The position numbers were made by a program, and so were the translations under genes. A stretch of 29,106 bases of DNA from a virus. Numbering within the stretch: the first letter of the stretch is position 1; each line of letters opens with the position of its first letter. Shown piece after piece: positions 3,001-19,675 of this stretch. The DNA lies in IMG/VR virus record IMGVR_UViG_3300042362_000164, positions 1 through 29,106 of that record; one strand, given 5' to 3'. The notes beneath the pieces were generated by a model that worked only from the letters and a program-made list of their open reading frames with translations, was not told where the DNA came from and did not search any database.

Positions 3001-4807
3001 GGCTCAAAACAGAATCAAGGCCGAGCGTCTTGGCAATGAGGTCGACATTCTTGCCTTCGACGCTGGCCAGCAGTGCCTTTGCGGACTCAATGCCGTCTAC
3101 GCCAAGCACGCGAAGCTGCGCGTCAATCTCCGTGCCGTTTACAGCAGCAAGCTGCTGCCGTGCATCAGCAATTGAATCAACGCCAAGCAGCCGCAGAACC
3201 GGCTCAATGTCTACGGTAGAAATCGACGCCAGCCGCTGCCGGGCTTCGTCTATTGTGTCCACGCCAAGCACCGTCAACGTGGCAGCAACATCTACGCTCT
3301 GAAGTTCTGCCAGCTTCGCTTGTGCAGCGTCAATCGAGTCGAATCCGCTGGCTCTCAAGAACGCCTCGACGGTCGTGCCGTCAATCACGCCAAGTCGCTC
3401 GCGTGCATCGTCGATGCTGTCTGTCCCTAAGAACTCAAGCGTGGCCGTGACGCTGCGATCACTTAGTGACTCAATCGCTGATTGAGCAGCGTCAATGGAG
3501 TCAAATCCAATGGCTTGCAGCTTTGGCTGAATTTGTACTTCGCCCAGCGCAACAAGCCTATTCCTAGCGGCATCAATCGTGTCTACGCCAAGTAGCTGTA
3601 GCGTCGCCGCCACGTCTACGTCTTTCAACTCACCAAGCTTGGCCTGGGCGGCATCTATTGACTCAAACCCAGTTGCCTGCAGAAACGCTTCGACGGTGGT
3701 GCCGTCGAGTGCTGCCAGCCTTTCTGCCGCATCGCTGATAGTCCCGGCCCCAAGAAACTCAAGCGTGGCCGTGACGCTGCGATCACTTAGTGACTCAATC
3801 GCTGATTGAGCAGCGTCGATGTTCTCAAACCCGATCGCCTGCAGCTTTGGCTCGATCTGCAAAGCACCCAGGGCGATCAACCGTTCGCGTGCGGCATCAA
3901 TCGAATCGACGCCGAGAACCTTGAGGACCGCATCGATCTGCGTACCGTCAACGCCAGCAAACTGTTGCCGCAGATCGTCCAGTTCCTCGACACCAGCGAT
4001 TTGCAACGCTGCGGTAATCTGCGTGTCAGTCAGTTGAGCTAACGAGGCTCGCAGTTCGTTGCTCGCCTCAACGCCCTCGCGAACTCCGACGACCTGCACC
4101 TCAAATGTTGTTGCAATGTCGCCAGACTGAATGCGTGAAAACTCTTCACGGTACTGCTCAATAGAAATTCGCCCAGCTTCAAAGCGATCGCGTAGCTCAA
4201 GGATCGCCGTTGCCTGCCGCTCTGCTGTTGGCGTTGATCCGCTGATCGCTGCAGCAATTTCCCGCGACTGCTCTGCGAAGCGTTCAGCAGACAAGGCACC
4301 GCCTTCAAACGCCGCTCGCAGCGGGGCAATCGCTTCGGTGAAGCGATCCAGGGCAGTGCTGTCCGATCCTTCAGAAAGCTTGGCTGACTCAAGGCCAAAG
4401 TTGCGGGCGTCTATTGCACCCATCTTCAGCAGTTCGTTGAGCCGCTCAAGACTAGCCGCTCTTGCTTGATCAGCAGTTTGATTCTGCTGCGTGATTTGCA
4501 GCCCCTCTTGGAAAGCCGCCGCCGCCGCCTTCGCCTCTTCGGTCAACTGCCCAAATGCGGCAGCGTACTCATTGGGCGCGACAACGCCGTTTCGCAACTG
4601 CTGGGCAAGCGACTCGAACTTCGCCGCGAACTCCTCTTGAGCTTTGCCCGCTGCCGCCGTCTTCTCAGCGAACGGCTGGAACACAGCCGTGGCCTTTTCG
4701 GCCTGCTTGCCGAGGTTGTCGAGCGCACGATCGACAGGCGTGAGTGACTTCGCCAGCCCGCTGGCGTCGCCGCTAACCTTGAGCGCGAGTCCGAGAATAT
4801 TCGCCAT
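1..4807 (-). CDS. Tail tape measure protein, C-terminus cut by window edge
   Basis: Open from an ATG at 4807 to the window edge, giving at least 1602 codons without a stop. Tape measure proteins set tail length and are carried inside the tail tube. The gene follows the tail assembly chaperone, as expected, and its ATG overlaps that gene's stop (TGATG), so translation is probably coupled. Seen in order: an alpha-helical N-terminus (residues 1-250), thirteen 27-residue repeats (250-600), four helical-hairpin units near residues 677, 744, 807 and 863, a TP901-like core with an Ala/Gln-rich region (about 940-1120), a hydrophobic stretch (about 1120-1210) that could be the membrane-interacting part, then a long charged Gln/Ala/Glu-rich coiled coil to the edge. 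Family assignment rests on size, position and composition. The repeat region is less GC-rich than the neighbouring genes. Confidence 0.93.
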   Translation of the reverse strand, partial: MANILGLALKVSGDASGLAKSLTPVDRALDNLGKQAEKATAVFQPFAEKTAAAGKAQEEFAAKFESLAQQLRNGVVAPNEYAAAFGQLTEEAKAAAAAFQEGLQITQQNQTADQARAASLERLNELLKMGAIDARNFGLESAKLSEGSDSTALDRFTEAIAPLRAAFEGGALSAERFAEQSREIAAAISGSTPTAERQATAILELRDRFEAGRISIEQYREEFSRIQSGDIATTFEVQVVGVREGVEASNELRASLAQLTDTQITAALQIAGVEELDDLRQQFAGVDGTQIDAVLKVLGVDSIDAARERLIALGALQIEPKLQAIGFENIDAAQSAIESLSDRSVTATLEFLGAGTISDAAERLAALDGTTVEAFLQATGFESIDAAQAKLGELKDVDVAATLQLLGVDTIDAARNRLVALGEVQIQPKLQAIGFDSIDAAQSAIESLSDRSVTATLEFLGTDSIDDARERLGVIDGTTVEAFLRASGFDSIDAAQAKLAELQSVDVAATLTVLGVDTIDEARQRLASISTVDIEPVLRLLGVDSIADARQQLAAVNGTEIDAQLRVLGVDGIESAKALLASVEGKNVDLIAKTLGLDSVLSLTQAIDASESKTVTFDVAGNADEETKRIAELVTEQDAYQAAIAEGLRVTREVRTAEERRAAELEKIESLLARGAISEETAGRARDKATGSVEAAARAEAESQKAREKLLQEGARLTEQFASEEEKRAKTIQQIDDLLKAGVISEETYAKARGQATGEADKAAEAASKYQQVIEDGLRVTASVATEEERRATELEKLESLLSQGAISQETFVRASERATGVEKERADAAASAARIIAANLTPQEKYDQQIQELTQHLDAGRLTQEQFNRAAQKAKSDLDGVGSEAAKTDKNIERLNKNVSILAQIEIGRLVFDGVRALGNAFTSVTSQITSLVGSVNSSLDTLNDFSARTGIGVEALQGYAVAAKLAGVDTEAFGTSIQRLAVNIGKATPGDALDKSLRNINLSVQELRALSPEQQFSAIGQAISQLPTAADRAAAAVEVFGKQGAALAPLFREGADSIEELRARAERLGIIVNETQIENVAAMNDGFDLVSKTVEGIIGQVVGNLAPAVTTVTDEFLRFVEGFAGAEGNGGTGIANAITDVLLQGADYLAGVFDSFVENFDGFVVGLKSSAEVFAAVGNAFTAAGESLRVIFNAFEIFVNGSLGLTGRLLEQFGKLFSTDVQEFGKGLAIQSEAAMQQNVAELQDAASNAAKAATQVIYGGESSAGAAGKGAATEFVDAFAARIQQERSPQFQIETNIEKTRERFDSFFGGIVDQSSVITDAMRGFEAAVADVQDPLKLNEEEIARIKAAQDKVNEAITKEQARRQEVADAAAKQADADAKRIESLTKPNDAQSKLAEDLAAVEREQVRVQEQQAAARAAQDTASADAATARLAQLDQLQAKLQDTQAASEQGFSDGFVKAFEATNKSIRDLVDKAEVKSLVGVPDAVGRAAAIAADNLQQSIDTLQEKVKAGILTKESYDQEVARQREVFADRLAGAQRVEEFLAAQLDERQRAEIQFQDTLEQRKIQAAENVKAIQDRITAEQEAVQNARNTGDLKAA
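2179..2850 (-). repeat. SHOCT-like helical hairpin units in the tape measure protein
   Basis: Four diverged units of about 56-67 residues, centred on Ile/Leu residues 677, 744, 807 and 863 of the tape measure protein. Each has a charged helix, L-L-x-x-G-x-I-S-x-E-T/Q-F/Y, then a second helix; the first three close with an A-T-G. The pattern resembles the short SHOCT hairpin. Similar single copies appear near 4375-4475, 4120-4230 and 205-325. The SHOCT relation is inference; the repetition is seen in the translation. Confidence 0.65.
3008..4060 (-). repeat. Thirteen tandem 81-bp (27-residue) repeats in the tape measure gene
   Basis: Uninterrupted in-frame array inside the tape measure gene; units begin at 4060, 3979, 3898 and so on, every 81 nt. 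The consensus starts D-A-A-R-x-R-L-x-x-L, then about five variable residues, then a V/I-x-x-x-L-x-x-L-G-V/F-D-S-I segment. This suggests one amphipathic helix followed by one short strand per unit. The following 26 residues look like a degenerate fourteenth unit. Period and borders were read directly; the helix/strand assignment is inference. Confidence 0.92.
3432..3817 (-). repeat. 62-bp exact direct repeat marking a four-unit duplication
   Basis: Bases 3432-3493 and 3756-3817 are identical, offset by 324 nt, which is exactly four 81-bp units (108 residues). Similarity continues with scattered mismatches on both sides. Units 3-6 therefore match units 7-10 better than they match adjacent units, so the array probably grew by duplication of a four-unit block. 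Confidence 0.9.
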
Positions 4808-5468: not shown

Positions 5469-5801
5469 CTAGATGGGTGCCAGACGCAGCGTCACGGTGT
5501 TCCTCTGCACATCGTTGACCTTCTTCTCGACGACGAGTCGCTCGAAGATGGCCTTATGCGTGAACACGACGCCCGGCCCCGAGACTTGAAACGTGGCACG
5601 CTTGCCGTAATTGGCAACGCTACAGTTCGCGGCCCCGAGGCACGCTATCTCTATAGTGCCAAGGTCAAGCGCGAACGCGCTGCCGGCGGGAGCCTCCCGC
5701 GACACTGGCAGATTGCCGCCGAGCGTTACCCTGAAGTCTGTGACTTCAGTGAACGCTACGCTGTTCCACGTCACGGTAACGCCGGCAGCATAGTCAGCCA
5801 T
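5469..5801 (-). CDS. Tail-tube-like structural protein (second copy)
   Basis: 110 residues with no signal peptide or membrane segment, rich in alternating hydrophobic strands (V-T-V-T-W-N-S-V-A-F, then V-T-D-F-R-V). It carries late features common in short siphovirus tail-tube proteins: a G-K-R-A-T-F-Q-V-S-G-P-G stretch and a terminal R-N-T-V-T-L-R-L. GGAGG lies nine bases before the ATG. It sits between another tube-like gene and the tail chaperone, the usual place of the major tail protein. Which of the two genes encodes the true tube subunit is unclear; this one may be a minor tail or tail-tip protein. Confidence 0.6.
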   Translation of the reverse strand: MADYAAGVTVTWNSVAFTEVTDFRVTLGGNLPVSREAPAGSAFALDLGTIEIACLGAANCSVANYGKRATFQVSGPGVVFTHKAIFERLVVEKKVNDVQRNTVTLRLAPI

Positions 5802-5825
5802 GACGGGATGCCTCCGTCACGACGA

Positions 5826-6206
5826 TCAGCGTGCGACCTTGAAGACTGCCTGGCCCTTGATGACGTCGTTCGTCGCGAATGTCACCGACGAACTGACGAC
5901 CGTGGCGTCCTTCGACAGGAACGTCACGCCGGCGTGCGAGATCGACATGGCGGCACTGGAGGCGTCCGCGACGATAGCCTTGCCGAGATAGTCGATCGTG
6001 ACCTGCCGCCCAGTGTCGGTGGCGTTGCCGGTCAGGGGGCGGTCAATCGTCTTGACGGCGTTGCCGGCGGTGAGCCCGAGGTGCGACACGTCTATCGTGT
6101 TGTCGGTCGCCGGATCGGCCAGGTTGTAAACGATGTTCGTGACGGTGAAGGCCGTGCCGCCGAACGTGAACACTGTCCCCGCACCGTCATGAGGCGTGAC
6201 TGCCAT
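5826..6206 (-). CDS. Major tail (tube) protein candidate
   Basis: 126 residues, all-beta in appearance, with F-T-F-G-G-T-A-F-T-V-T-N-I near the start and an N-T-I-D-V-S-H-L-G segment typical of phage tail-tube proteins. AGGAG lies nine bases before the ATG. It directly follows the tail terminator gene and precedes a second small beta-rich protein and the tail chaperone, the normal position for the tube subunit. The polypeptide is at the short end for tube proteins. Assignment is by pattern and synteny, not by a diagnostic residue. Confidence 0.68.
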   Translation of the reverse strand: MAVTPHDGAGTVFTFGGTAFTVTNIVYNLADPATDNTIDVSHLGLTAGNAVKTIDRPLTGNATDTGRQVTIDYLGKAIVADASSAAMSISHAGVTFLSKDATVVSSSVTFATNDVIKGQAVFKVAR

Positions 6207-6209
6207 AGC

Positions 6210-6626
6210 TCAATTCTCCTGCCAGAGGATGCCGTAGATTTGCTGCACGGTGTAGACCGGCGGGAGGTCGCCGCCGGCCAACTGGGCGAATCCGTCGCTC
6301 TCGTTGTCGAGCGACACACGCGCCACAGTCACATTTTCCAATGTGCCCCCCCAGCCATCCAGAGACTGCCGGCACTGGTCTGCGATATCTCTCGCGGATT
6401 CGTAGGTCTCTGCGAAGATGTCGACCGAGAGGCTTACTGTCGGCGTGCCGATCGGCCCCTTGAGGGACTGCGTCCGCTCGACCGCCACACGCCGCCACGT
6501 CACGAACGGCAGGGCCGCCGTGGCCGGTGCGATGACGGGATAGATGCGGGTGCCGATGAGGGCGGTCACGCCGGCTGTCGCGACGAGGCGGCTGCGAACG
6601 GCAGCCTCTGGTGATTTCAAAGGCAT
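6210..6626 (-). CDS. Tail completion/terminator protein, DUF3168 family
   Basis: 138 residues. Family features read directly: an N-terminal helix, then V-T-A-L-I-G-T-R-I-Y-P, A-L-P-F-V-T-W-R-R-V, the T-Q-S-L-K-G-P-I-G-T-P segment and V-S-L-S-V-D-I-F-A-E-T-Y followed by a helix. DUF3168 proteins cap the growing tail tube and form part of the head-tail interface. It lies between an HK97 gp10-like gene and the tail-tube genes, as in most siphoviruses. GGAG lies seven bases before the ATG. Confidence 0.87.
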   Translation of the reverse strand: MPLKSPEAAVRSRLVATAGVTALIGTRIYPVIAPATAALPFVTWRRVAVERTQSLKGPIGTPTVSLSVDIFAETYESARDIADQCRQSLDGWGGTLENVTVARVSLDNESDGFAQLAGGDLPPVYTVQQIYGILWQEN

Positions 6627-6628
6627 CG

Positions 6629-7429
6629 TCAGACTCCGGAGAGGGTGCCTTCGCCGCGGAACGTGAGCGTGCTCAGTGCTCGCTCCAGGCTGATCCGCAG
6701 CTCCTGCTGCAGGATGAACGCCACCTGACTCTGCGACTCTTCAAAAGCAGTGCGAACCGGCGGGCGTCCTGCACGACCGCCCACGGGCGTCGGTGCGATC
6801 ACGATGGGCGTTTTTGACTTGCGAAAGAACGCCCCCGGATACGGCGGATCAGTCTGGACCCGGCCGTTTCGCTGGCGGATCGTGTCGAATGGCCCGAGGG
6901 TCTTGAAGCTCGACGCGATGTAGGCGTTCTGCCCCTTGACCGTATGCACGACGCCCTTGCCGCGGACGGTCTCTTGTATGCCCATGCGGGTTCGCACAAA
7001 CGGCACCGTCGGGCTTTTCCGCTGGTACGGTGTGTTGGAAAACTTGCCGACCACACGCTGCCGCGTGCCGTACTCAATGAGCCACTGGTGATTCGCACGG
7101 TCACCGGCAGACGCACTAGAGACACGGACCTTGCCGCCGGCAGCACTGCGAGAGTCCTGCCTGTTGGCCCGGCGATAGCCAATCAGGCCGACGGCAGCAC
7201 CATCACGCGGGTATGCCTTCACCAAGTGCGAGGCCGCGGCCTTCAGATTGCCGGTAGGACCGACAGGCGACAGTTCACGCAGCCGCAGATACGCCGGATA
7301 GATTGCTTTTTCCAGCGCATTCTTCAACGCCTGGGCTGTGAAGTTCTTGTCGCCCAGCCCGCGGATAGCGTCCCCGACCCGCTTGAGGTCGGGAAAGTCT
7401 GCCGAGATGACGATACCGGCTGTCGCCAT
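6629..7429 (-). CDS. HK97 gp10-like neck/head-tail protein, enlarged
   Basis: 266 residues, longer than the usual 130-180 of this family. The N-terminus has the gp10-like layout: an F-P-D-L-K-R-V segment, a helical A-L-K-N-A-L-E-K-A-I, then L-S-P-V-G-P-T-G-N-L-K and a short W-L-I-E-Y-G-T-R motif. The middle and C-terminus contain an extra basic, Gly/Pro-rich section before a terminal helix. AGGAG lies nine bases before the ATG. Neighbours are a head-tail adaptor upstream and the DUF3168 protein downstream, matching the standard connector order. The extra 80-100 residues are unexplained. Confidence 0.8.
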   Translation of the reverse strand: MATAGIVISADFPDLKRVGDAIRGLGDKNFTAQALKNALEKAIYPAYLRLRELSPVGPTGNLKAAASHLVKAYPRDGAAVGLIGYRRANRQDSRSAAGGKVRVSSASAGDRANHQWLIEYGTRQRVVGKFSNTPYQRKSPTVPFVRTRMGIQETVRGKGVVHTVKGQNAYIASSFKTLGPFDTIRQRNGRVQTDPPYPGAFFRKSKTPIVIAPTPVGGRAGRPPVRTAFEESQSQVAFILQQELRISLERALSTLTFRGEGTLSGV

Positions 7430-12467: not shown

Positions 12468-14292
12468 GCTTCCGCCCCTTCCGCTTGGGCTTGCCGTAGG
12501 CGTTCTCCTCGACCGGCGGCGGCTCGGGCAGCGGGTCGATCTTCGTGAGCGTCGACACCTTGTGCCCGACTTGCGTCTCGGTCGCCCGCCACCCGCCAGC
12601 CACCTCTTCGTAGAGCGTGATGAGGGCGGCAGGATCTTCCTTCGTAGCGTCAATCTTGAAATCGGTGCCGGGGATGTCGAGCGTGCCGTAATCCATCACA
12701 TGGTCAATCCGCCCGCGAGCACGGCCGCCCGAGGAATCCCACGACACGAAGTCACCTTCCGACACGGTACCCGGCTCAGCGCGGGCTTCGGAGGCTTGCT
12801 CGGGCTGCAAAACGGGAGCCGGTGCCGGTTCTGCCGGCGGTGCTGCCTCGCTCACTCCCGCGAGAATCGACGCAATCTGTGCGGCGGTAATGCTCGGGAA
12901 CGACGCGGCGATCAGTGCCGCCGCCCCTTCCTTTGTCAGCAGCCCCGCCGGAATCTGCGTCAGGATGGCAATCAGCCCCGTGATCTGTGCACCGTTGAGC
13001 GACACGTCGGCCACCTGGGGAGACGCAGGCTCGGCTGGCTGGCCATCCACGGCCGCAGCAACGCCGCCCTCGACAGCCTGGCCATCGATGCCGCTTCCGG
13101 GCTGCTGCTGGGCGAGCACGTCGCCGACTGACGGTGGTGCCCCAAGCGTCCCCATGTTCAGCGGCCGATACCGCTCGTCGCCGCCATCGACCGGGTCAAG
13201 ATTCTCGCTCGCCCTGATGTCGTTGGTCGACACGACGCCGATGTCCCACATCGCACGATAGTACGCCGACCGGCTGGCGGCATCGCCACGCAAGAGCCCC
13301 CGCACGTCGAACTCGACCAGATACCGCTCGTCGTCAACGATCAGGTCGCGCATAAATGCCGACTCAAGACGCCGCAGCCACGGCATGATCGTGTGCGTGA
13401 CGAATTGAATCTCGGCCTGCGGCGTACCCGGCTCAATCCCTAGCAGATAGCCAGGGATACGGAACAGCCTGGCGATCTCGCGAAGCTGGTACTCACGCAA
13501 CTCCAGATACTGCGAGTCGGTGTTGCTGGCGTATGGCACCTCGTAGGGCTTCAGCCCGCCCGTGAGGACGGCCGTCTCGTGAGCGTTGTACGAGCCGCGG
13601 TGCTTGCGGTTCCAGTTCTCTGCAAGCTCGCGGCGAGCGTCGGCGTTGAGCTGGTTGTCGGTCGACAGGATGAATCCCGGCCGGGCACCGGCACCGAAGA
13701 ATCTCGCCCCGTGGATTTCGCACGCACGAGCCAGGGCAATCGCGTCGCGGCACTCCTCCACCACCGAGATGCCGTGCACGCCGTCGTCGCTCGGGCCGCG
13801 GACGTGCAGAATCTGCTCGTCGGTGTAGATCGTCTGCTTGCCCTTCGCCTCGCGGTACGTGTACCGCAGCCGGCCGTTCTCCAGCGTCTCAGTCTTCATC
13901 CGGCTCGGGTGCAGCGGCACGATCTGGTCGATCGCCCCTGACTGACCTGGAACAAGCTCGCTCTCGGCGTCGCCCCACAGGCCGACGTGCATCACCATCT
14001 GCTCGCGCCACTCGAAGCTCGTCTGCCATGCGTTTGGCTGCGAGTGCAGCTTGCGATACAGCGGCAGCTCGCGGGCGAGTCGCTTGCCGCCGCCAGGCGT
14101 CCGCTCAAGCAGGTGGAGCGGCAGGCCCGCCACCGTCTCGGCCAAAATCCGCAGGCACGAAAACACCGCCGCGACCGAGGTCGCATTCTCTGGCGTGATT
14201 CGCACGCCGGCCGGCGAACGACCGCCGCCATCGTCATCCCACGAGCGCTCTTCGCCGGGGAGCCAGAGAATCCGGTGCTCGTGAGCGATCAT
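12460..14292 (-). CDS. Portal protein (HK97 type) with C-terminal extension
   Basis: 610 residues from an ATG overlapping the terminase stop (ATGA). Typical portal features: T-P-E-N-A-T-S-V-A-A-V-F-S-C-L-R-I-L-A-E-T-V-A near the N-terminus, L-P-L-H-L-L-E-R-T, L-H-V-R-G-P-S-D-D-G, F-G-A-G-A-R-P-G and F-R-I-P-G-Y-L-L-G in the core, and I-R-A-S-E-N-L-D-P-V-D-G-G near the end of the core. The dodecameric portal is the DNA gate of the head. After about residue 430 comes an Ala/Pro-rich linker, then a V-S-W-D-S-S-G-G-R-A-R-G-R-I domain like the Tudor-type DUF2945 fold, and a basic tail. HK97-family portals usually have 400-450 residues. Confidence 0.94.
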   Translation of the reverse strand: MIAHEHRILWLPGEERSWDDDGGGRSPAGVRITPENATSVAAVFSCLRILAETVAGLPLHLLERTPGGGKRLARELPLYRKLHSQPNAWQTSFEWREQMVMHVGLWGDAESELVPGQSGAIDQIVPLHPSRMKTETLENGRLRYTYREAKGKQTIYTDEQILHVRGPSDDGVHGISVVEECRDAIALARACEIHGARFFGAGARPGFILSTDNQLNADARRELAENWNRKHRGSYNAHETAVLTGGLKPYEVPYASNTDSQYLELREYQLREIARLFRIPGYLLGIEPGTPQAEIQFVTHTIMPWLRRLESAFMRDLIVDDERYLVEFDVRGLLRGDAASRSAYYRAMWDIGVVSTNDIRASENLDPVDGGDERYRPLNMGTLGAPPSVGDVLAQQQPGSGIDGQAVEGGVAAAVDGQPAEPASPQVADVSLNGAQITGLIAILTQIPAGLLTKEGAAALIAASFPSITAAQIASILAGVSEAAPPAEPAPAPVLQPEQASEARAEPGTVSEGDFVSWDSSGGRARGRIDHVMDYGTLDIPGTDFKIDATKEDPAALITLYEEVAGGWRATETQVGHKVSTLTKIDPLPEPPPVEENAYGKPKRKGRKRG

Positions 14293-15896
14293 AGAAAAAA
14301 GATCTCGGGCGTTTGTGACGGCGTTTGGTCGGCTATGGCCCAGCACCCAATCGCCTGACATAAGGCGACGATGCCGTCGATTCGTTCCGTTGACTTGGCT
14401 TTGCTCGGATAAATGTTCCCGTAGCGGTCTTCGTGCACCGCGACGTTTCCAGCGCACCACGTCAGGATAGGATGCCCTGCGTGTCGAATCTTGGAATTGC
14501 CGACCAAGTTTTCCAGAGCCTTGGCCGGCGCACTCATCGCGCGACCGCCCTGCGGAAATCCTCTCATTTCAACCCCGTCCCCTTGCAGCATATTGGCGAT
14601 CATCTGCCCGTTGAACTTCAGGTCGACCGCTAATTGTCGCACGCGATATTGCTCGCAGATGGCGGAAATGTCGCGGTGGAGAACCGTGTAGTCGGTCACG
14701 TTGCCGTCCGTGGTGCGGAGATGTCTATCGCGTATCCAGTCGGTGTACGGCACCTTGTCCCGCTGGCTCCGCTCGACGGCGTTGGATTCTGGAATCCAGA
14801 AAAACGGCAGCACGTCAATGCTCCCGTCCTCGGGATCGGGGCAGACAAGGACCAGGGCAGAGAGGTCGTAGGTCGTGGCAAGATCAAGGCCCGCGTACAC
14901 AGGCCGGTCGCCGAACTCGCGGAGCGGCACCGAACCTTGCTGCCACGTTTCCGGCGACAGCCACCGAACGTCAGAGGAGGTCCAAGTGTTGAGCCGGTAG
15001 CGGAGGAATGAGTTGAGCTTGGTTGGCGACTGCTCGGCCTCTTTGGCGTCGAGGGCGAAGTCGCCCGGCTTGATCGTCACGCCCCACGACGGGTTCGCCT
15101 GGGGCCACACGTCGGGGTCTTTCCAATCGGCTCCCTCCTCCATCTCGTGGATGCACGAGAAGAACGTCGGGTCGTGCCGCCAGTTCGCCGCGACCGCCTT
15201 GGCATACTGGTACTGCTCATAGCAGATGCCCTTGCGGTCGTAGCCTGCCGTCGTGATCGAGCAGAGCAGCGGCTGCTCGCGGGCCGCGCCACCGTAGCGG
15301 AGGGCATCCCACAGGCGGCGATCTTTTTGAGCGTGAAGCTCGTCGAACAGCAGCCCGTGGATATTCAATCCTTCCGCACGGAAGGCGTCGGCGGAAAGGA
15401 CGCGGTAGAACGACGCCTCCTTGCGGTAGGCAATCGTGCGGCGAGAGTCGATGACCTCTAGCTGCTGCGAGAGCAGGGGGGAGGCTCGCACCATGCTTGC
15501 GGCCTCGCGGAACACGACCGATGCCTGCTCGCGGTCGGCCGCGGCACCGTAGACCTCGGCCCCATTCTCGCCATCCATGACGAGAAGATAGAGACCTATG
15601 CCCGCAAGGATCGTAGACTTGCCCGATTTCTTTGCTGTCGAGATGTACGCTACGCGGTAGCGGCGCAGATCGTCGGCGACACGCACCCAGCCGAATAGCT
15701 CCGCGATCATTTCCTTCTGCCAATCAAGCAGCAGAAAAGGCTGATTGGCGAACTTTCCTTTGCTGTGCCGCAGCCAGCCCTCAAAAAACTCTATGGCGTG
15801 AACGGCCCGCTCGGGGTCGAACCAGTAATCAAGCCCCTGTTTTTTTGCCGCGCTTTTGGACAAAGGCTGCAATCGGGTCTGATTCGGCGTTGCCAT
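14289..15896 (-). CDS. terL: Terminase large subunit
   Basis: 535 residues. ATPase part: Walker A-like T-A-K-K-S-G-K-S (87-94) and Walker B L-L-F-D-E (182-186). The nuclease part begins near residue 330 with Y-A-G-L-D-L-A-T-T-Y-D-L-S-A-L, whose Asp (338) is a likely metal ligand. Domain order and length match the Terminase_1 family. It powers DNA packaging and cuts concatemers at the portal. The gene overlaps the end of the small subunit by 68 bases and ends in an ATGA overlap with portal. Confidence 0.96.
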   Translation of the reverse strand: MATPNQTRLQPLSKSAAKKQGLDYWFDPERAVHAIEFFEGWLRHSKGKFANQPFLLLDWQKEMIAELFGWVRVADDLRRYRVAYISTAKKSGKSTILAGIGLYLLVMDGENGAEVYGAAADREQASVVFREAASMVRASPLLSQQLEVIDSRRTIAYRKEASFYRVLSADAFRAEGLNIHGLLFDELHAQKDRRLWDALRYGGAAREQPLLCSITTAGYDRKGICYEQYQYAKAVAANWRHDPTFFSCIHEMEEGADWKDPDVWPQANPSWGVTIKPGDFALDAKEAEQSPTKLNSFLRYRLNTWTSSDVRWLSPETWQQGSVPLREFGDRPVYAGLDLATTYDLSALVLVCPDPEDGSIDVLPFFWIPESNAVERSQRDKVPYTDWIRDRHLRTTDGNVTDYTVLHRDISAICEQYRVRQLAVDLKFNGQMIANMLQGDGVEMRGFPQGGRAMSAPAKALENLVGNSKIRHAGHPILTWCAGNVAVHEDRYGNIYPSKAKSTERIDGIVALCQAIGCWAIADQTPSQTPEIFFL

Positions 15897-16356
15897 TGGT
15901 CGTGCTTACCTGTGACCGGCTGCTCGGCGTCATGCCGAACTCTTGCTCAATCCGCAGCATTGCGGCGTGGTGCCGGTGCATCTGCGTTGCCCACGGGGCG
16001 ACCTGCGTGTATTTGATTCGGAGCTTTCCATCGGTGCGGTTTGGGTCTGGCTCCCAGTGCGTGTATTCCTCGCCGCCGACTTTCACTTTCTCATAGCAGG
16101 CAAGATAGAGCGACGATTCGATGCAGTATCGCGTCAGCGTTGGCACGTCGGCCTCGGTCAGCACGCGCATCCGCGCGAGCTTTGGCACAGTGTCGTTCCA
16201 GATTTCAATGCCCTTCGCGTCGAGCGTCTTAGGCGGCGGGAAGTCTTGCGGCACGAGGGCAGGCGTCGGCTCGCTCGATGGCAGCGACCCCTTCGACGGG
16301 TTGCCGCGAATGTATTTCAGAATCGAAGGCTCGGGGGCGGGGCCGCGTTTGCCCAT
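15829..16356 (-). CDS. terS: Terminase small subunit, P27 family
   Basis: 175 residues, starting M-G-K-R-G-P-A-P-E-P-S, the hallmark opening of P27-type small terminases. It continues with P-P-P-K-T-L-D-A-K-G-I-E-I-W-N and R-V-L-T-E-A-D-V-P-T-L-T-R-Y, characteristic helices of the family. It binds the packaging start site on phage DNA and hands it to the large subunit. The frame extends upstream to 16401, but the family start at 16356 is clear. It immediately follows the methyltransferase gene with a 2-base gap. Confidence 0.94.
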   Translation of the reverse strand: MGKRGPAPEPSILKYIRGNPSKGSLPSSEPTPALVPQDFPPPKTLDAKGIEIWNDTVPKLARMRVLTEADVPTLTRYCIESSLYLACYEKVKVGGEEYTHWEPDPNRTDGKLRIKYTQVAPWATQMHRHHAAMLRIEQEFGMTPSSRSQVSTTNGNAESDPIAAFVQKRGKKTGA

Positions 16357-16358
16357 GA

Positions 16359-17189
16359 TCAACCTGCCTTTCTTGCCCAAAACGCGGGGCGGTTGTTCCA
16401 CAGTTTTGTCTTGATTTTCACATAGCCAAGCCGCTTCATGTCGGCGTTGAATACTCGCTGGGTGGCCTTGCCGTCTAGCAATTTTCCGCCGACCTTGTAC
16501 GTGTGAAAATGACCAATGGCCGTCGTGCCAAACGCGTTTGCAATCAGCATGAATCGAGGCTTTAGGTTCCGCACTACTTCGTACAGATGCTCGATTGGCG
16601 AGTGAATGTGCTCAAAGTATTCCGAGGCAAAAACAAAAGTCGTGGGGCCGGCGGCATCTTCAACGGTTGGCACCATAGAGAACCCAAACTGCTCAGCCAT
16701 GCGGCAAGCAACGCGATACTGGATTGATCCGCTGATGTTTGTCCCGACAACTTCCGCCGCGGGGAACAACTCCCGAAACGCGGATGTCGTGTATCCAGCG
16801 CCGCAACCAAGGTCTACGATTCTCCTGACTGGGGCCATTCTTGCAGCAATGCCGACAGGCGGAAAGTTTCTCGTGGGATGCAGGCCGAGCAGATACTTCC
16901 GCGAATAGACGATCCAGCAAGCCCACAGTTCAGCGAGGTACAGAGGAGAGTCGTAAACGCCGTAGTCCGGCTGGCCTGCATCAAGCGACGCATACCATCG
17001 CTTCATTAGGTGGCCGCTACGCAGCATCTGCTGCGACGCCGAGTCGCCCTGCATCAATGCTAGCGTTCTGGCCGCAAGCCTTCCGATGCCCTCAGCGTCC
17101 GGCACACCTAGGCCGGAAAGCGATTCAAGGAATAGCAACAGCGCCTTCTTGGGAGGCACCGCGGTTACGGATTGCGTGCTAGCAGTCAT
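16359..17189 (-). CDS. Class I SAM-dependent methyltransferase
   Basis: 276 residues. SAM-binding motif I is I-V-D-L-G-C-G-A-G-Y-T-T (124-135), followed by E-V-V-G-T-N-I-S (motif II region) and F-A-S-E-Y-F-E-H-I-H. No N-P-P-Y type motif and no C5-cytosine P-C motif, so it is not a standard DNA base methyltransferase; a small molecule, sugar or modified base is more likely. An N-terminal helical region (1-115) precedes the Rossmann domain. The ATG overlaps the end of the TAGT gene. It is AT-richer than the terminase genes and is grouped with TAGT and ParB, which suggests a joint role in DNA modification. Confidence 0.8.
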   Translation of the reverse strand: MTASTQSVTAVPPKKALLLFLESLSGLGVPDAEGIGRLAARTLALMQGDSASQQMLRSGHLMKRWYASLDAGQPDYGVYDSPLYLAELWACWIVYSRKYLLGLHPTRNFPPVGIAARMAPVRRIVDLGCGAGYTTSAFRELFPAAEVVGTNISGSIQYRVACRMAEQFGFSMVPTVEDAAGPTTFVFASEYFEHIHSPIEHLYEVVRNLKPRFMLIANAFGTTAIGHFHTYKVGGKLLDGKATQRVFNADMKRLGYVKIKTKLWNNRPAFWARKAG

Positions 17190-18039
17190 CCGCAATAGCT
17201 TTCTGCTTGTACCTAAGGGTCAGCCCATAATCCTGTGGCTCTGCCGAGATCGAGATTCCGTCCCTCAAGACCAGCCTGTTTTTCCTCCACGGACCGTAGT
17301 CAACCGAGTGCTGCCAGCGATTCCACTTCCAAACTACGCGAACGCAATCTGGGTGAAACGCTCGCAACGCTTCTGCCATCCTGAGCCGCCCATCCATCTG
17401 CTCGTTCTGCTTGTAAAGCTCTTCTGTGTTGCCGCCGCTCATAGTCATCGTCGGCATCTTCTCTGCTAAAAAGGCTTGGCAGAGGATTGTGCACATGCCT
17501 GCCTTGAGAACGCGAAGCGAGAGGTCTGTGTCTTCGTTGTATCTGCCCCTCCACCGAAACGGCAAATTATTTCGAATAAGGATGCACGAATAAATGCGTG
17601 TATTGAGAATGAGCGGAGGTCGCTTTCGCTTCCTTGGAATGAACATCGCGTACTGCTTGCCAGATAGCCCGACGTTCTCGTAGCGATCCGACAGATCCTC
17701 AATGACCTTGAACGATGTGCCGTCGGTCGTTCGCCACTTCATATTTTTGTGATAGCGATAAAACTTTCTGATGTTGTCATCGAGAATCCAGTGCCACGCG
17801 TGCCCTTCTGATATTGAGTGTTCCCACACCCAGTTGCGGGCTGGAATTGATCCTTGCCCTAGGTTGCTGAATGGAAGAACAAGGATTTTTTTAGGGTCGA
17901 TAACCGAAGCGTACTGCTTGTATTCCTGCGGCTCGATGACTATGCGGTACGGGATATTGCGGAGCTCAAGAGCGCGCGCGGTCAGCCTAGATTCCCACCG
18001 CCCCTTAGAGATGACGTAAACCGGATGCTGCGGATTCAT
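17179..18039 (-). CDS. TET-associated-type glycosyltransferase (TAGT)
   Basis: 286 residues from an ATG overlapping the ParB stop (ATGA). Strongly conserved segments of the TAGT family are visible: Y-V-I-S-K-G-R-W (8-15), I-L-V-L-P-F-S-N-L-G-Q-G-S-I-P-A-R-N (52-69), W-I-L-D-D-N (84-89, the likely metal/nucleotide-sugar site), L-N-T-R-I-Y-S-C (145-152), R-Y-N-E-D-T-D-L-S-L-R (166-176) and T-M-S-G-G-N-T (199-205). The family is named for its links to TET/JBP base hydroxylases in phage genomes and is thought to put sugars on hydroxymethylated bases. No TET gene occurs in this window, so the substrate must come from elsewhere or the role differs. The enzyme family is well supported; DNA as substrate is inference. 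Confidence 0.88.
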   Translation of the reverse strand: MNPQHPVYVISKGRWESRLTARALELRNIPYRIVIEPQEYKQYASVIDPKKILVLPFSNLGQGSIPARNWVWEHSISEGHAWHWILDDNIRKFYRYHKNMKWRTTDGTSFKVIEDLSDRYENVGLSGKQYAMFIPRKRKRPPLILNTRIYSCILIRNNLPFRWRGRYNEDTDLSLRVLKAGMCTILCQAFLAEKMPTMTMSGGNTEELYKQNEQMDGRLRMAEALRAFHPDCVRVVWKWNRWQHSVDYGPWRKNRLVLRDGISISAEPQDYGLTLRYKQKAIADDC

Positions 18040-18668
18040 GATTCGTAGTTCTTCATGTCTGTATCTAGGACTTCTGGGAACCAAATTGCTTTTGTCTTGT
18101 CTGTGCACTCTTGGCCGATTGTCTGAAAAAACTCCTGGCGGTCCTCCGGCGTCTTGAAGTGCACGATGACCTTGTATTTGTCGAGCTCTTCGTTCTCGCA
18201 CTCTGGCATGCCCTGCCATACGTCATCGACAGAAGCCTCTGGGTCTTTGCTAGTGTCATAGAGCCCTGCTTGCGCCGCCGTCGACGTGAGAAGCATCTGC
18301 AATGCCTCGCTGCCGGTGTCCACGTTGCGAAGCAACTCATCGAGCTTGGCGGCATCGCTGTCAGCCATCGCCGCGAGCGGGTCTAGCGTGGCAAGAATCT
18401 TGTCGGCCTCGGCCTCGTTCACGTCGAGTACCAAAACTGGTACGGTCGCGTTCGCCGCCGTCTCGGCTCGAAGGTGACCGTCGATCAGCATGAGGGAGCC
18501 GTCGGGCAGCTCACGCGCAAGGCAGGCATCTGCCATCCCGACCTCCGCAAGAACACCGCGGAGCGCATCCTGTTGAGCCTTGGGATGCGTTCTCCAGTTC
18601 TTCGGATTGGGCTTGAGGTCGCTGGCAGGCACCATACGGAGCGATTTGACGCGGTTTCGGATGTTCAT
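18036..18668 (-). CDS. ParB-like N-terminal domain protein
   Basis: 210 residues. The first 90 residues form a ParB/Srx-like domain: L-K-P-N-P-K-N-W-R-T-H-P, a helix, then L-I-D-G-H-L-R-A-E, the G-H-x-R motif common to this fold. The domain may bind nucleotide or cut DNA. The C-terminal part ends in V-I-V-H-F-K-T-P-E-D-R and is not assigned. Phage ParB-like genes often lie beside terminase or base-modification genes, as here. No ribosome binding site precedes the ATG, which is unusual in this window, so a leaderless or short leader transcript from the gap upstream is possible. Confidence 0.82.
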   Translation of the reverse strand: MNIRNRVKSLRMVPASDLKPNPKNWRTHPKAQQDALRGVLAEVGMADACLARELPDGSLMLIDGHLRAETAANATVPVLVLDVNEAEADKILATLDPLAAMADSDAAKLDELLRNVDTGSEALQMLLTSTAAQAGLYDTSKDPEASVDDVWQGMPECENEELDKYKVIVHFKTPEDRQEFFQTIGQECTDKTKAIWFPEVLDTDMKNYES

Positions 18669-18893
18669 GTAGGGAAACTATTAGTGAGGGGAAACGGGCT
18701 AGAGAACGCAGTTGTGAGACTCGTAGAGGGGGGGGCCGAAAACCCCCGGCCGCGCACGCGCAGGGATCACCTGTGGTTTACCTCGTTGCCGGCCTTTGCC
18801 GTGCCCCCCCTATGGGGTCGGGTGTGGCCTCCGTTCTTTATATATGCACCCTGTGTCAACCTACGGGCTTCCAAAAGTTCCACGTCCCCCGGG
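18669..18893. other. Non-coding gap between HNH and ParB genes
   Basis: The longest gene-free stretch (225 bases). It has an 8-G run (18728-18735) followed by C5 (18743-18747), able to pair around CCGAAAA, and a C7 (18804-18810)/G4 (18814-18817) pair, but no U-tract after either. It also holds the only AT-rich patch nearby (18837-18845). A packaging (cos/pac) site or operator is possible from its position among HNH, ParB and terminase genes, but nothing diagnostic was seen. Confidence 0.5.
18837..18859 (-). promoter_or_regulatory. Candidate promoter for the modification/packaging operon
   Basis: Minus strand shows TTGACA (18854-18859) and, downstream, overlapping TATATA/TATAAA (18837-18844). 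The spacing is only 9-11 bases, well short of the usual 16-18, so a standard sigma70 promoter is doubtful. It is the only AT-rich stretch in the gap and lies upstream of ParB, TAGT, methyltransferase and terminase genes. Confidence 0.3.
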
Positions 18894-19199
18894 TCAACCA
18901 CCGCGCACTGTCTTCTTGCTGTGGCACGACGCACATAGGCATTGGCCATTCGCGACGTCGTACCGGAGGTCTGGTCGGCTCACCACCGACAGCACATGGT
19001 CTGCGTGGGCCTCGCGTCGCTTGGCACACACACGACCGCAGGCGCGGCATTGCCAGTTGTCACGCTCAAGCACAGCCAGCCGCCACGCCTTGTGCTGCGG
19101 CGAGCAGTAGCCTCGCTCGTGGGCATTCGGCCCGTTGTCGCGCCTGCGGATCTGGTGATTCGCACGCGCCGCCTTGATGAACTCGATTCGCTGCGGCAT
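18894..19199 (-). CDS. HNH endonuclease
   Basis: 101 residues. The zinc site is C-R-A-C (51/54) and C-A-S-C (89/92). The HNH core is seen as A-D-H-V (68), an Asn at 84 and the final His at 93 in C-H-S-K-K. Upstream Y-C-S-P-Q-H-K-A-W-R-L-A-V-L-E-R-D is the usual entry helix. HNH proteins next to terminase genes assist genome cutting in cos-type packaging; here it precedes the 225-base gap and the ParB-TAGT-methyltransferase-terminase run. AGGGTG lies a few bases before the ATG. Confidence 0.93.
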   Translation of the reverse strand: MPQRIEFIKAARANHQIRRRDNGPNAHERGYCSPQHKAWRLAVLERDNWQCRACGRVCAKRREAHADHVLSVVSRPDLRYDVANGQCLCASCHSKKTVRGG

Positions 19200-19207
19200 A
19201 GCTCACC

Positions 19208-19675
19208 CTAGATCGTGGACGCCTGGCGGAACGCCTCGTCGACCTGGGCCTCGTCGAGCCCGAGGGCAGCGGCGAGCGGCACGAGCATCGGGTGCGCCCG
19301 CTCGACATAGGGCGCGTAGTCCCACTCGACTCTTGCTTCCTCACGGGCCTGTGCGTCTTGTATCGCGTCGATGGCGGCATCGACCTGGGCGAGCGACACG
19401 CCGTGCCGCACCAGCCACAGGCGTATCTGCCGTGCCGTGACGCTCGCAGGCACTGACCGCTCCACAGGCAAATCGACGCTCTCGTTCGTCCATCCGTCGC
19501 CAAGGGCCGACAGGATGTCGGTGGAGTTTGGCGTCCCGATTAGCGTCCATTGCGATGTCGGAGCGCCGGTGCGCTGCTCCTGCGCCGATGAGTAGGCCGC
19601 GAGGATGTAGTCGCTCTCGCTGATAGAGATGACTGTGGCGACTGCACCTTCAATGCCAGCAAACCAGATATACAT
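19208..19675 (-). CDS. Tail-fibre-associated small protein
   Basis: 155 residues. The N-terminal part (M-Y-I-W-F-A-G-I-E-G) is hydrophobic and strand-rich. From about residue 80 a helical domain begins V-T-A-R-Q-I-R-L-W-L-V and continues to R-A-H-P-M-L-V-P-L-A-A-A-L-G-L-D. This kind of domain is common at the C-termini of phage tail proteins or in small proteins beside fibre genes. It lies one base beyond the propeller gene stop. A role in fibre attachment or folding is possible; no catalytic residues were seen. Confidence 0.6.
   Translation of the reverse strand: MYIWFAGIEGAVATVISISESDYILAAYSSAQEQRTGAPTSQWTLIGTPNSTDILSALGDGWTNESVDLPVERSVPASVTARQIRLWLVRHGVSLAQVDAAIDAIQDAQAREEARVEWDYAPYVERAHPMLVPLAAALGLDEAQVDEAFRQASTI

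Follow-up and report, generated by a model that had tools for sequence, protein, structure and literature searches.

A probable DNA-glycosylation cassette beside the terminase genes of a phage is exchanged together with the C-terminus of a ParB-like protein

The window analysed here is the complete 29,106-nt stretch of virus record IMGVR_UViG_3300042362_000164. An ORF check showed that genes for a ParB-like protein (P0001), a TAGT glycosyltransferase (P0002) and a SAM methyltransferase (P0003) overlap one another and are followed by the terminase genes (Table 1). The original prediction, made from the letters of the window, had described three overlapping reading frames running into the terminase genes, which matches exactly. 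The ATG of the TAGT gene and the stop codon of the ParB-like gene share a 4-bp overlap, the methyltransferase ATG falls just within the 3' end of the TAGT gene, and the genes for TerS and TerL also overlap. The window is a fragment. It is contained at 99.98–99.995% identity, across a terminal direct overlap of about 236 bp, in a genome of 53,481 bp (G001), which is very probably complete because of this overlap.

Table 1. Features of the ParB–terminase region (positions in the window).
Feature	Position	Strand	Remarks
HNH endonuclease, upstream of slot	18894–19199	minus	HNH 7e-9; position conserved in many relatives
ParB-like gene P0001	18036–18668	minus	210 aa; N-domain and C-terminal tail
ParB/Srx (ParB-CTPase) fold N-domain of P0001 (predicted), residues ~1–137	18259–18668	minus	PHROG, family profile, model of relative
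Putative docking tail of P0001, residues ~138–210 (domain: last ~60 residues)	18036–18258	minus	49-position HMM; GC 49.5%
Cassette block, apparently exchanged	16357–18259	minus	ParB codon ~137 to 1 base before TerS start
TAGT glycosyltransferase gene P0002	17179–18039	minus	PF20691; phrog_842
Class I SAM methyltransferase gene P0003	16359–17189	minus	Methyltransf_23; TAGT-linked family
Terminase small subunit TerS, slot border	15829–16356	minus	Terminase_4 1e-17
Terminase large subunit TerL	14289–15896	minus	TerL_nuclease 1.3e-41, TerL_ATPase 2.3e-27

The order of all six genes from the HNH endonuclease to TerL is kept in a close relative (L002), and the distant phages L028, L178 and L194 repeat the order ParB–TAGT–TerS–TerL; the arrangement is therefore not due to chance. 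GC content is 62.0% in the ParB N-domain, which resembles the genome in this respect, 49.5% in the ParB tail, 52.0% in the TAGT gene, 56.0% in the methyltransferase gene, 60.8% in TerS and 60.7% in TerL. The AT-richness originally ascribed to the module is real and sharper than had been described, as the step from 62.0% to 49.5% sits within the ParB gene. A scan of positions 15800–19300 for promoters and terminators gave no more matches than shuffled sequences did. Elsewhere in the window, positions 3425–3592 and 3748–3916 are about 82% identical to non-collinear parts of G001 at a distance of some 320 bp, suggesting an imperfect internal repeat.

P0001 scores 12.5 bits against the Pfam family ParB_N, under the cut-off of 26.3. 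ParB-like PHROG families match it down to 9.5e-12, and a profile of its family reaches 2.1e-7 against solved ParB/Noc/Spo0J chains. A model of L010, a natural relative, superimposes on CTPgammaS-bound ParB (7bnr) with a Z-score of 14.6 and an rmsd of 3.0 over 131 residues. As its own ParB_N score is below the cut-off, we use profiles and model to place P0001 in a fold family only, that of the ParB/Srx (ParB-CTPase) fold. A canonical partition ParB was considered and rejected: the protein has 210 residues with only the tail after the N-domain, and lacks the central HTH and the C-terminal dimerisation domain. Pfam scans of 44 of the G001 genes revealed no partition family that might provide a ParA partner.

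P0002 matches Pfam PF20691 (TAGT) with an E-value of 1.6e-38 and 133.2 bits (cut-off 27.5), and phrog_842 with 1.5e-39. The alignment shows an acidic DxD-like site (DDN, residues 87–89) and an RGRYNED motif. The model of a 64%-identical relative has a GT-A fold, as seen by comparison with GalNAc-T2 (Z 14.4, rmsd 4.2, 228 residues), and the nearest solved structures to this model include the collagen galactosyltransferase COLGALT1 and GalNAc-transferases. Both the GT-A fold and the ParB fold are present in the confident model of L010, which is a natural triple fusion. The assignment of P0002 as TAGT (PF20691), a GT-A-type glycosyltransferase, is certain; it rests on sequence and not on the genomic association with TET/JBP from which the name TAGT derives.

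P0003 gave only generic class I methyltransferase matches in Pfam, the best being Methyltransf_23 (3.9e-8), so that profile searches agree with the identities originally proposed for all three proteins. A function of P0003 as DNA base methyltransferase was rejected, as it matches neither the C5- nor the N6/N4-methyltransferase families. Its homologues form a tight family with invariant FASEYFEH and GHF motifs. Where there was room for a neighbour, 17 of 20 P0003-type loci adjoin a TAGT gene, of either subtype, which bears out the functional three-gene module that had been proposed. The model (pLDDT 88.5) has a fold like that of small-molecule O-methyltransferases with an N-terminal helical cap; these enzymes are also its best structural matches (Z 13.7), and an aminopentose methyltransferase reaches Z 12.3. 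O-methylation of the transferred sugar would be compatible with this predicted fold and is a reasonable guess, a class I fold being little guide to the substrate.

Almost all TAGT loci encode the tail of P0001 in the gene that immediately precedes TAGT, while the rest of the upstream protein varies. The core motif of the tail is W-x-GMPEF...VxF...D...F...GQxxTxKTKxIWxP. In a TAGT-anchored scan with an HMM built on 49 core positions, the tail was found adjoining or fused in 128 of the 152 TAGT copies with room for it, either as a separate ORF at most 400 bp upstream (94) or fused to the TAGT N-terminus (34). In seven other copies it lies within 3 kb, and it is absent from 17, mostly divergent TAGTs; nine further copies, not counted among the 152, were not assessable. 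Conversely, a tail-anchored scan found TAGT in the locus of all 81 tails, directly downstream or fused in 69 cases and farther away, within about 1.2 kb, in 12. Judged by these scans, tail and TAGT are paired almost without exception.

The tail follows the ParB N-domain in 61 ORFs, has a short N-terminus in 102 small separate proteins and is part of a TAGT fusion in 36. When stand-alone tails were compared with Pfam and PHROG, no family reached a meaningful score (best 0.0065), and a PDB search with the tail alone gave no significant match. The tail is joined to the TAGT N-terminus within one ORF in eight cultured phages, and ParB domain, tail and TAGT share a single ORF in L010 (528 aa) and L163 (690 aa from stop to stop). 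The tail of L010 is modelled with pLDDT values of 94–97, compared with less than 50 for the linker to ParB, and consists of extended pieces round one helix, which suggests that it packs on the transferase.

Several other arrangements of the tail were seen. Extra small tail-like proteins of 66–71 aa are encoded directly 3' of the tail–TAGT fusions of Aeh1, POP12 and Ah1 (L211:6921–7058, L213:6882–7001, L217:6921–7058). Paired tail–TAGT fusions lie close together in a single record, as a tandem duplication, in L209 (Vibrio phage Kuja), L036, L009, L037 and L075. In Vibrio phage henriette 12B8 (L212, ~5700–6840) tail and TAGT are unannotated and in different frames; either the two are truly split or the sequence contains a frameshift error.

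Relatives with TerL proteins 64–100% identical have between 1.2 and 5 kb of DNA separating the ParB-like gene from TerS. This slot contains a C5-cytosine methyltransferase, TET/JBP, GTP cyclohydrolase I, a PAPS-reductase-like/DUF3440 protein, an asparagine-synthase-like protein with a methyltransferase, an N6/N4 methyltransferase with a PLP enzyme, a divergent TAGT accompanied by UDP-galactopyranose mutase and in some cases by a sulfotransferase, or the present TAGT with its methyltransferase. Since known DNA-modification enzymes occupy the same slot in relatives, DNA modification holds as the theme of the locus, as originally suggested. When the DNA of L084, which has a different cassette, is compared with the window, homology stops at about nucleotide 410 of the ParB gene (codon ~137) and begins again precisely at the start of TerS, which is 99.5% identical. 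The coincidence of this break with the GC drop argues for late acquisition, also part of the original prediction, with a border inside the ParB gene.

The relation between cassette and ParB C-terminus was analysed in 33 non-redundant phages. Among 85 pairs sharing a C-terminus, 64 also share the cassette, compared with 30 in the best of 20,000 shuffles; the shuffles ignore relatedness, for which the equal N-domain identities serve as control (mean 0.79, up to 0.98, between cassette types versus 0.80 within a type). The 21 exceptional pairs come from two joins. One connects C5-methyltransferase with asparagine-synthase cassettes, both of which have a zinc-ribbon-like tail; the other connects TET with a CL21 locus, where a TET-like gene was also found in a later scan. 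A scan anchored on ParB, which in part covered the same contigs, repeated the pattern and revealed direct fusions of this N-domain to N6/N4 DNA methyltransferases, assigned by the sequence GDLWxLGxHRLLCGDST...PPY and not by profile. These comparisons indicate that the N-domain is the fixed, resident element of the slot and that the ParB C-terminus and the enzyme are exchanged as a block, from codon ~137 to the TerS start.

Three other cassettes from this slot may be mentioned. A divergent TAGT with genes for a sulfotransferase and UDP-galactopyranose mutase after it (L149:834–3750, L251, L266, L267) suggests a sulfated furanose-type sugar on DNA. The PAPS-reductase-like/DUF3440 protein after the ParB-like gene (L116:7106–8275, L110, L108, L113) recalls IbrA/IbrB. 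Beside GTP cyclohydrolase I cassettes, a protein of about 300–377 aa with no Pfam match (CL4, e.g. L097:1464–2597; also L099, L100 and L139) is a candidate base-inserting enzyme.

No gene for TET/JBP, C5-methyltransferase or hydroxymethylase had been seen in the window, and extending the search to G001 likewise yielded none. Profile searches of G001 detected neither TET/JBP nor a C5-methyltransferase. The thymidylate-synthase/hydroxymethylase fold PF00303 was absent in the same search that finds gp42 in T6 at 56 bits; with this positive control, a hydroxymethyl-pyrimidine made by a thymidylate-synthase-type enzyme was rejected for G001. Pfam scans of 44 of its genes identified an integrase, Prim-Pol, helicases, a pyrimidine-dimer glycosylase and virion genes, and no base-activating enzyme. 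Since many genes of G001 match no family, such negative profile results are indicative and not conclusive.

The search covered 43 records with a tail-type TAGT, nine of them from cultured phages and 34 from metagenomic virus contigs, of which many are fragments. In none of the 43, G001 included, was TET/JBP found, and TET-dependence was rejected for the tail-type TAGT. Among the 50 records searched, TET/JBP occurs only in Nonlabens phage P12024L and in the close relative L102, where the slot holds TET and a weak TAGT match; the TAGT matches of both are of other, divergent types. A C5-methyltransferase as general partner was also rejected, being present in only five of the 43 tail-type records. 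Thymidylate-synthase-type enzymes are confined, among these records, to large cultured phages. Aeh1, Ah1, 65 and POP12 have only one thymidylate-synthase-like locus over the cut-off, in a search that also detects gp42 in T6. From the missing TET/JBP and these single loci, the tail-type TAGT departs from the TET rule, and a need for gp42 seems to be absent too. The TET-based rationale of the original prediction thus fails, no hydroxymethylating enzyme having been detected in G001 either; its identities, module, acquisition and theme stand, and it had missed the docking tail, the exchange of the ParB C-terminus and the TET-independent origin of the hydroxymethylcytosine used by the T2/T6 TAGTs (PMC13216743).

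The explanation that we favour, and as a whole consider fairly probable, is that a swappable cassette probably sugar-tags the phage DNA. The block would belong to a large set of interchangeable cassettes for DNA hypermodification, each placed between TerS and a ParB-like gene that stays in place. The ParB-fold N-domain would engage DNA, probably as an NTP-controlled clamp, and the C-terminal tail would dock the modification enzyme supplied by the same cassette, here TAGT. This enzyme would move a sugar from a nucleotide-sugar onto the phage DNA late in infection, and the methyltransferase would most likely then methylate the sugar or the modified base. At this position related phages swap the tail along with a different DNA-modifying enzyme, which suggests that the ParB-like proteins are adaptors bringing such enzymes to DNA. 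The sequences themselves establish the gene identities, the tail–TAGT pairing, the natural fusions of the ParB domain with tail and TAGT or with a DNA methyltransferase, and the block exchange. Published precedents are the T2/T6 TAGT, which acts on DNA, the binding of NTPs by ParB folds and the ParBc genes at CmoX loci.

The main weakness of this explanation is twofold: no activating enzyme was recognised in G001, and the DNA of phiJL001, which has a solitary T6-like TAGT, is cut normally by restriction enzymes (PMC4276943). We also count against it that the structural neighbours of TAGT include protein O-glycosyltransferases and that several cassette proteins in the slot have no family identity. 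A literature search on PTm1 DNA found no papers.

The strongest rival remains a protein acceptor, TAGT glycosylating, for example, the ParB-tail protein itself or a host protein, so that the module would not concern DNA modification. COLGALT1 and GalNAc-transferases among the nearest structures fit this, as do both parts of the weakness just named and the Thr/Ser-rich TxKTKSIW motif kept in the tail. However, the S/T residues of that motif are only moderately conserved (50–76%), genuine DNA-modification enzymes occupy the same slot, there are fusions of this ParB N-domain to DNA methyltransferases, and the characterised phage TAGTs (T2/T6) act on DNA (PMC13216743). We regard a protein acceptor as unlikely.

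Partly overlapping with the favoured explanation, and likewise with DNA as acceptor, TAGT might act on a hydroxylated base that comes from the host, from a co-infecting phage or from a phage oxygenase that escaped recognition, by the classical TET-then-TAGT or HMase-then-TAGT route. Precedents are TET beside TAGT in P12024L, hydroxymethylcytosine in T2/T6 (PMC13216743) and the L102 slot. They are opposed by the tail-type records devoid of TET/JBP, and the single thymidylate-synthase-like loci of Aeh1, Ah1, 65 and POP12 constrain the option of an unrecognised enzyme; this route appears rather doubtful. Phage genomes are compact and variable cargo is common near terminases, yet an accidental collection of independent cargo, with overlaps due to compact packing and the ParB-like protein an unrelated nuclease or partition protein, is highly improbable, being strongly contradicted by the tail–TAGT pairing, the triple fusions, the methyltransferase–TAGT linkage and the matching of C-termini to cassettes.

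Going beyond the favoured explanation, we tentatively raise the possibility that ParB-like proteins of tailed phages are general modification adaptors, each an unvarying ParB-fold clamp with plug-in tails for glycosyltransferases, TET, C5-methyltransferases, 7-deazaguanine enzymes and others, and that here a (methylated) sugar is placed on a base without prior hydroxylation. If true, the latter would mean that DNA can be glycosylated by a new route.

TAGT, fusions of ParB folds and variable modification genes have all been described before. Two things appear to be new, the docking tail paired with TAGT and the joint exchange of a ParB C-terminus and its enzyme: neither was found in the literature searched, the scope of which did not include Iyer et al. 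2013 (10.1093/nar/gkt573), so that priority is uncertain. ParBc genes accompany CmoX hypermodification loci in a role given as unknown (PMC12783734), and TAGTs occur without known DNA glucosyltransferases in 288 of 753 phage genomes (PMC13216743). To both, the exchange of tail and enzyme offers a testable answer, in which ParB is a clamp-adaptor and a solitary TAGT is an enzyme that is docked. Searching for the tail motif is a simple means of finding many such modules, and the ParB–TerS slot is a place to seek new DNA-modification enzymes.

Among known systems, the TAGT of T2/T6, a beta-glucosyl-HMC-alpha-glucosyltransferase, resembles P0002 in being phage-encoded, in its GT-A-type fold and in belonging to PF20691. 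It glucosylates DNA at cytosines that already carry glucose (PMC13216743, PMC13390438), and the hydroxymethylcytosine is made without TET (PMC13216743). In contrast to P0002, to which it is 16% identical, it has no docking tail and its substrate is glucosylated hydroxymethylcytosine; T6 has the base-making enzyme of gp42 type that was not found in G001. The TET/JBP-associated TAGT of Nonlabens phage P12024L belongs to the same Pfam family, but is only 24–25% identical to P0002, has no tail and directly adjoins a TET/JBP gene.

ParB-CTPase folds bind NTPs and in phages are often fused to DNA methyltransferases (PMC12704722, the text of which does not mention glycosyltransferases). These fusions and the CmoX ParBc genes (PMC12783734) share with the present locus a ParB fold fused to or beside DNA-modification enzymes; the present locus differs from those systems in that a short C-terminal tail is swapped along with an enzyme encoded separately downstream. 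For the glucosyltransferase Aeh1ORF087c, an earlier prediction of DNA modification, with the base unknown, is given in the passage of PMC8056088 citing Iyer 2013. Unlike the proteins described here, it is one polypeptide with no ParB domain and no methyltransferase annotated beside it; like P0002 it is a tail-type TAGT, in this case with the tail fused at the N-terminus.
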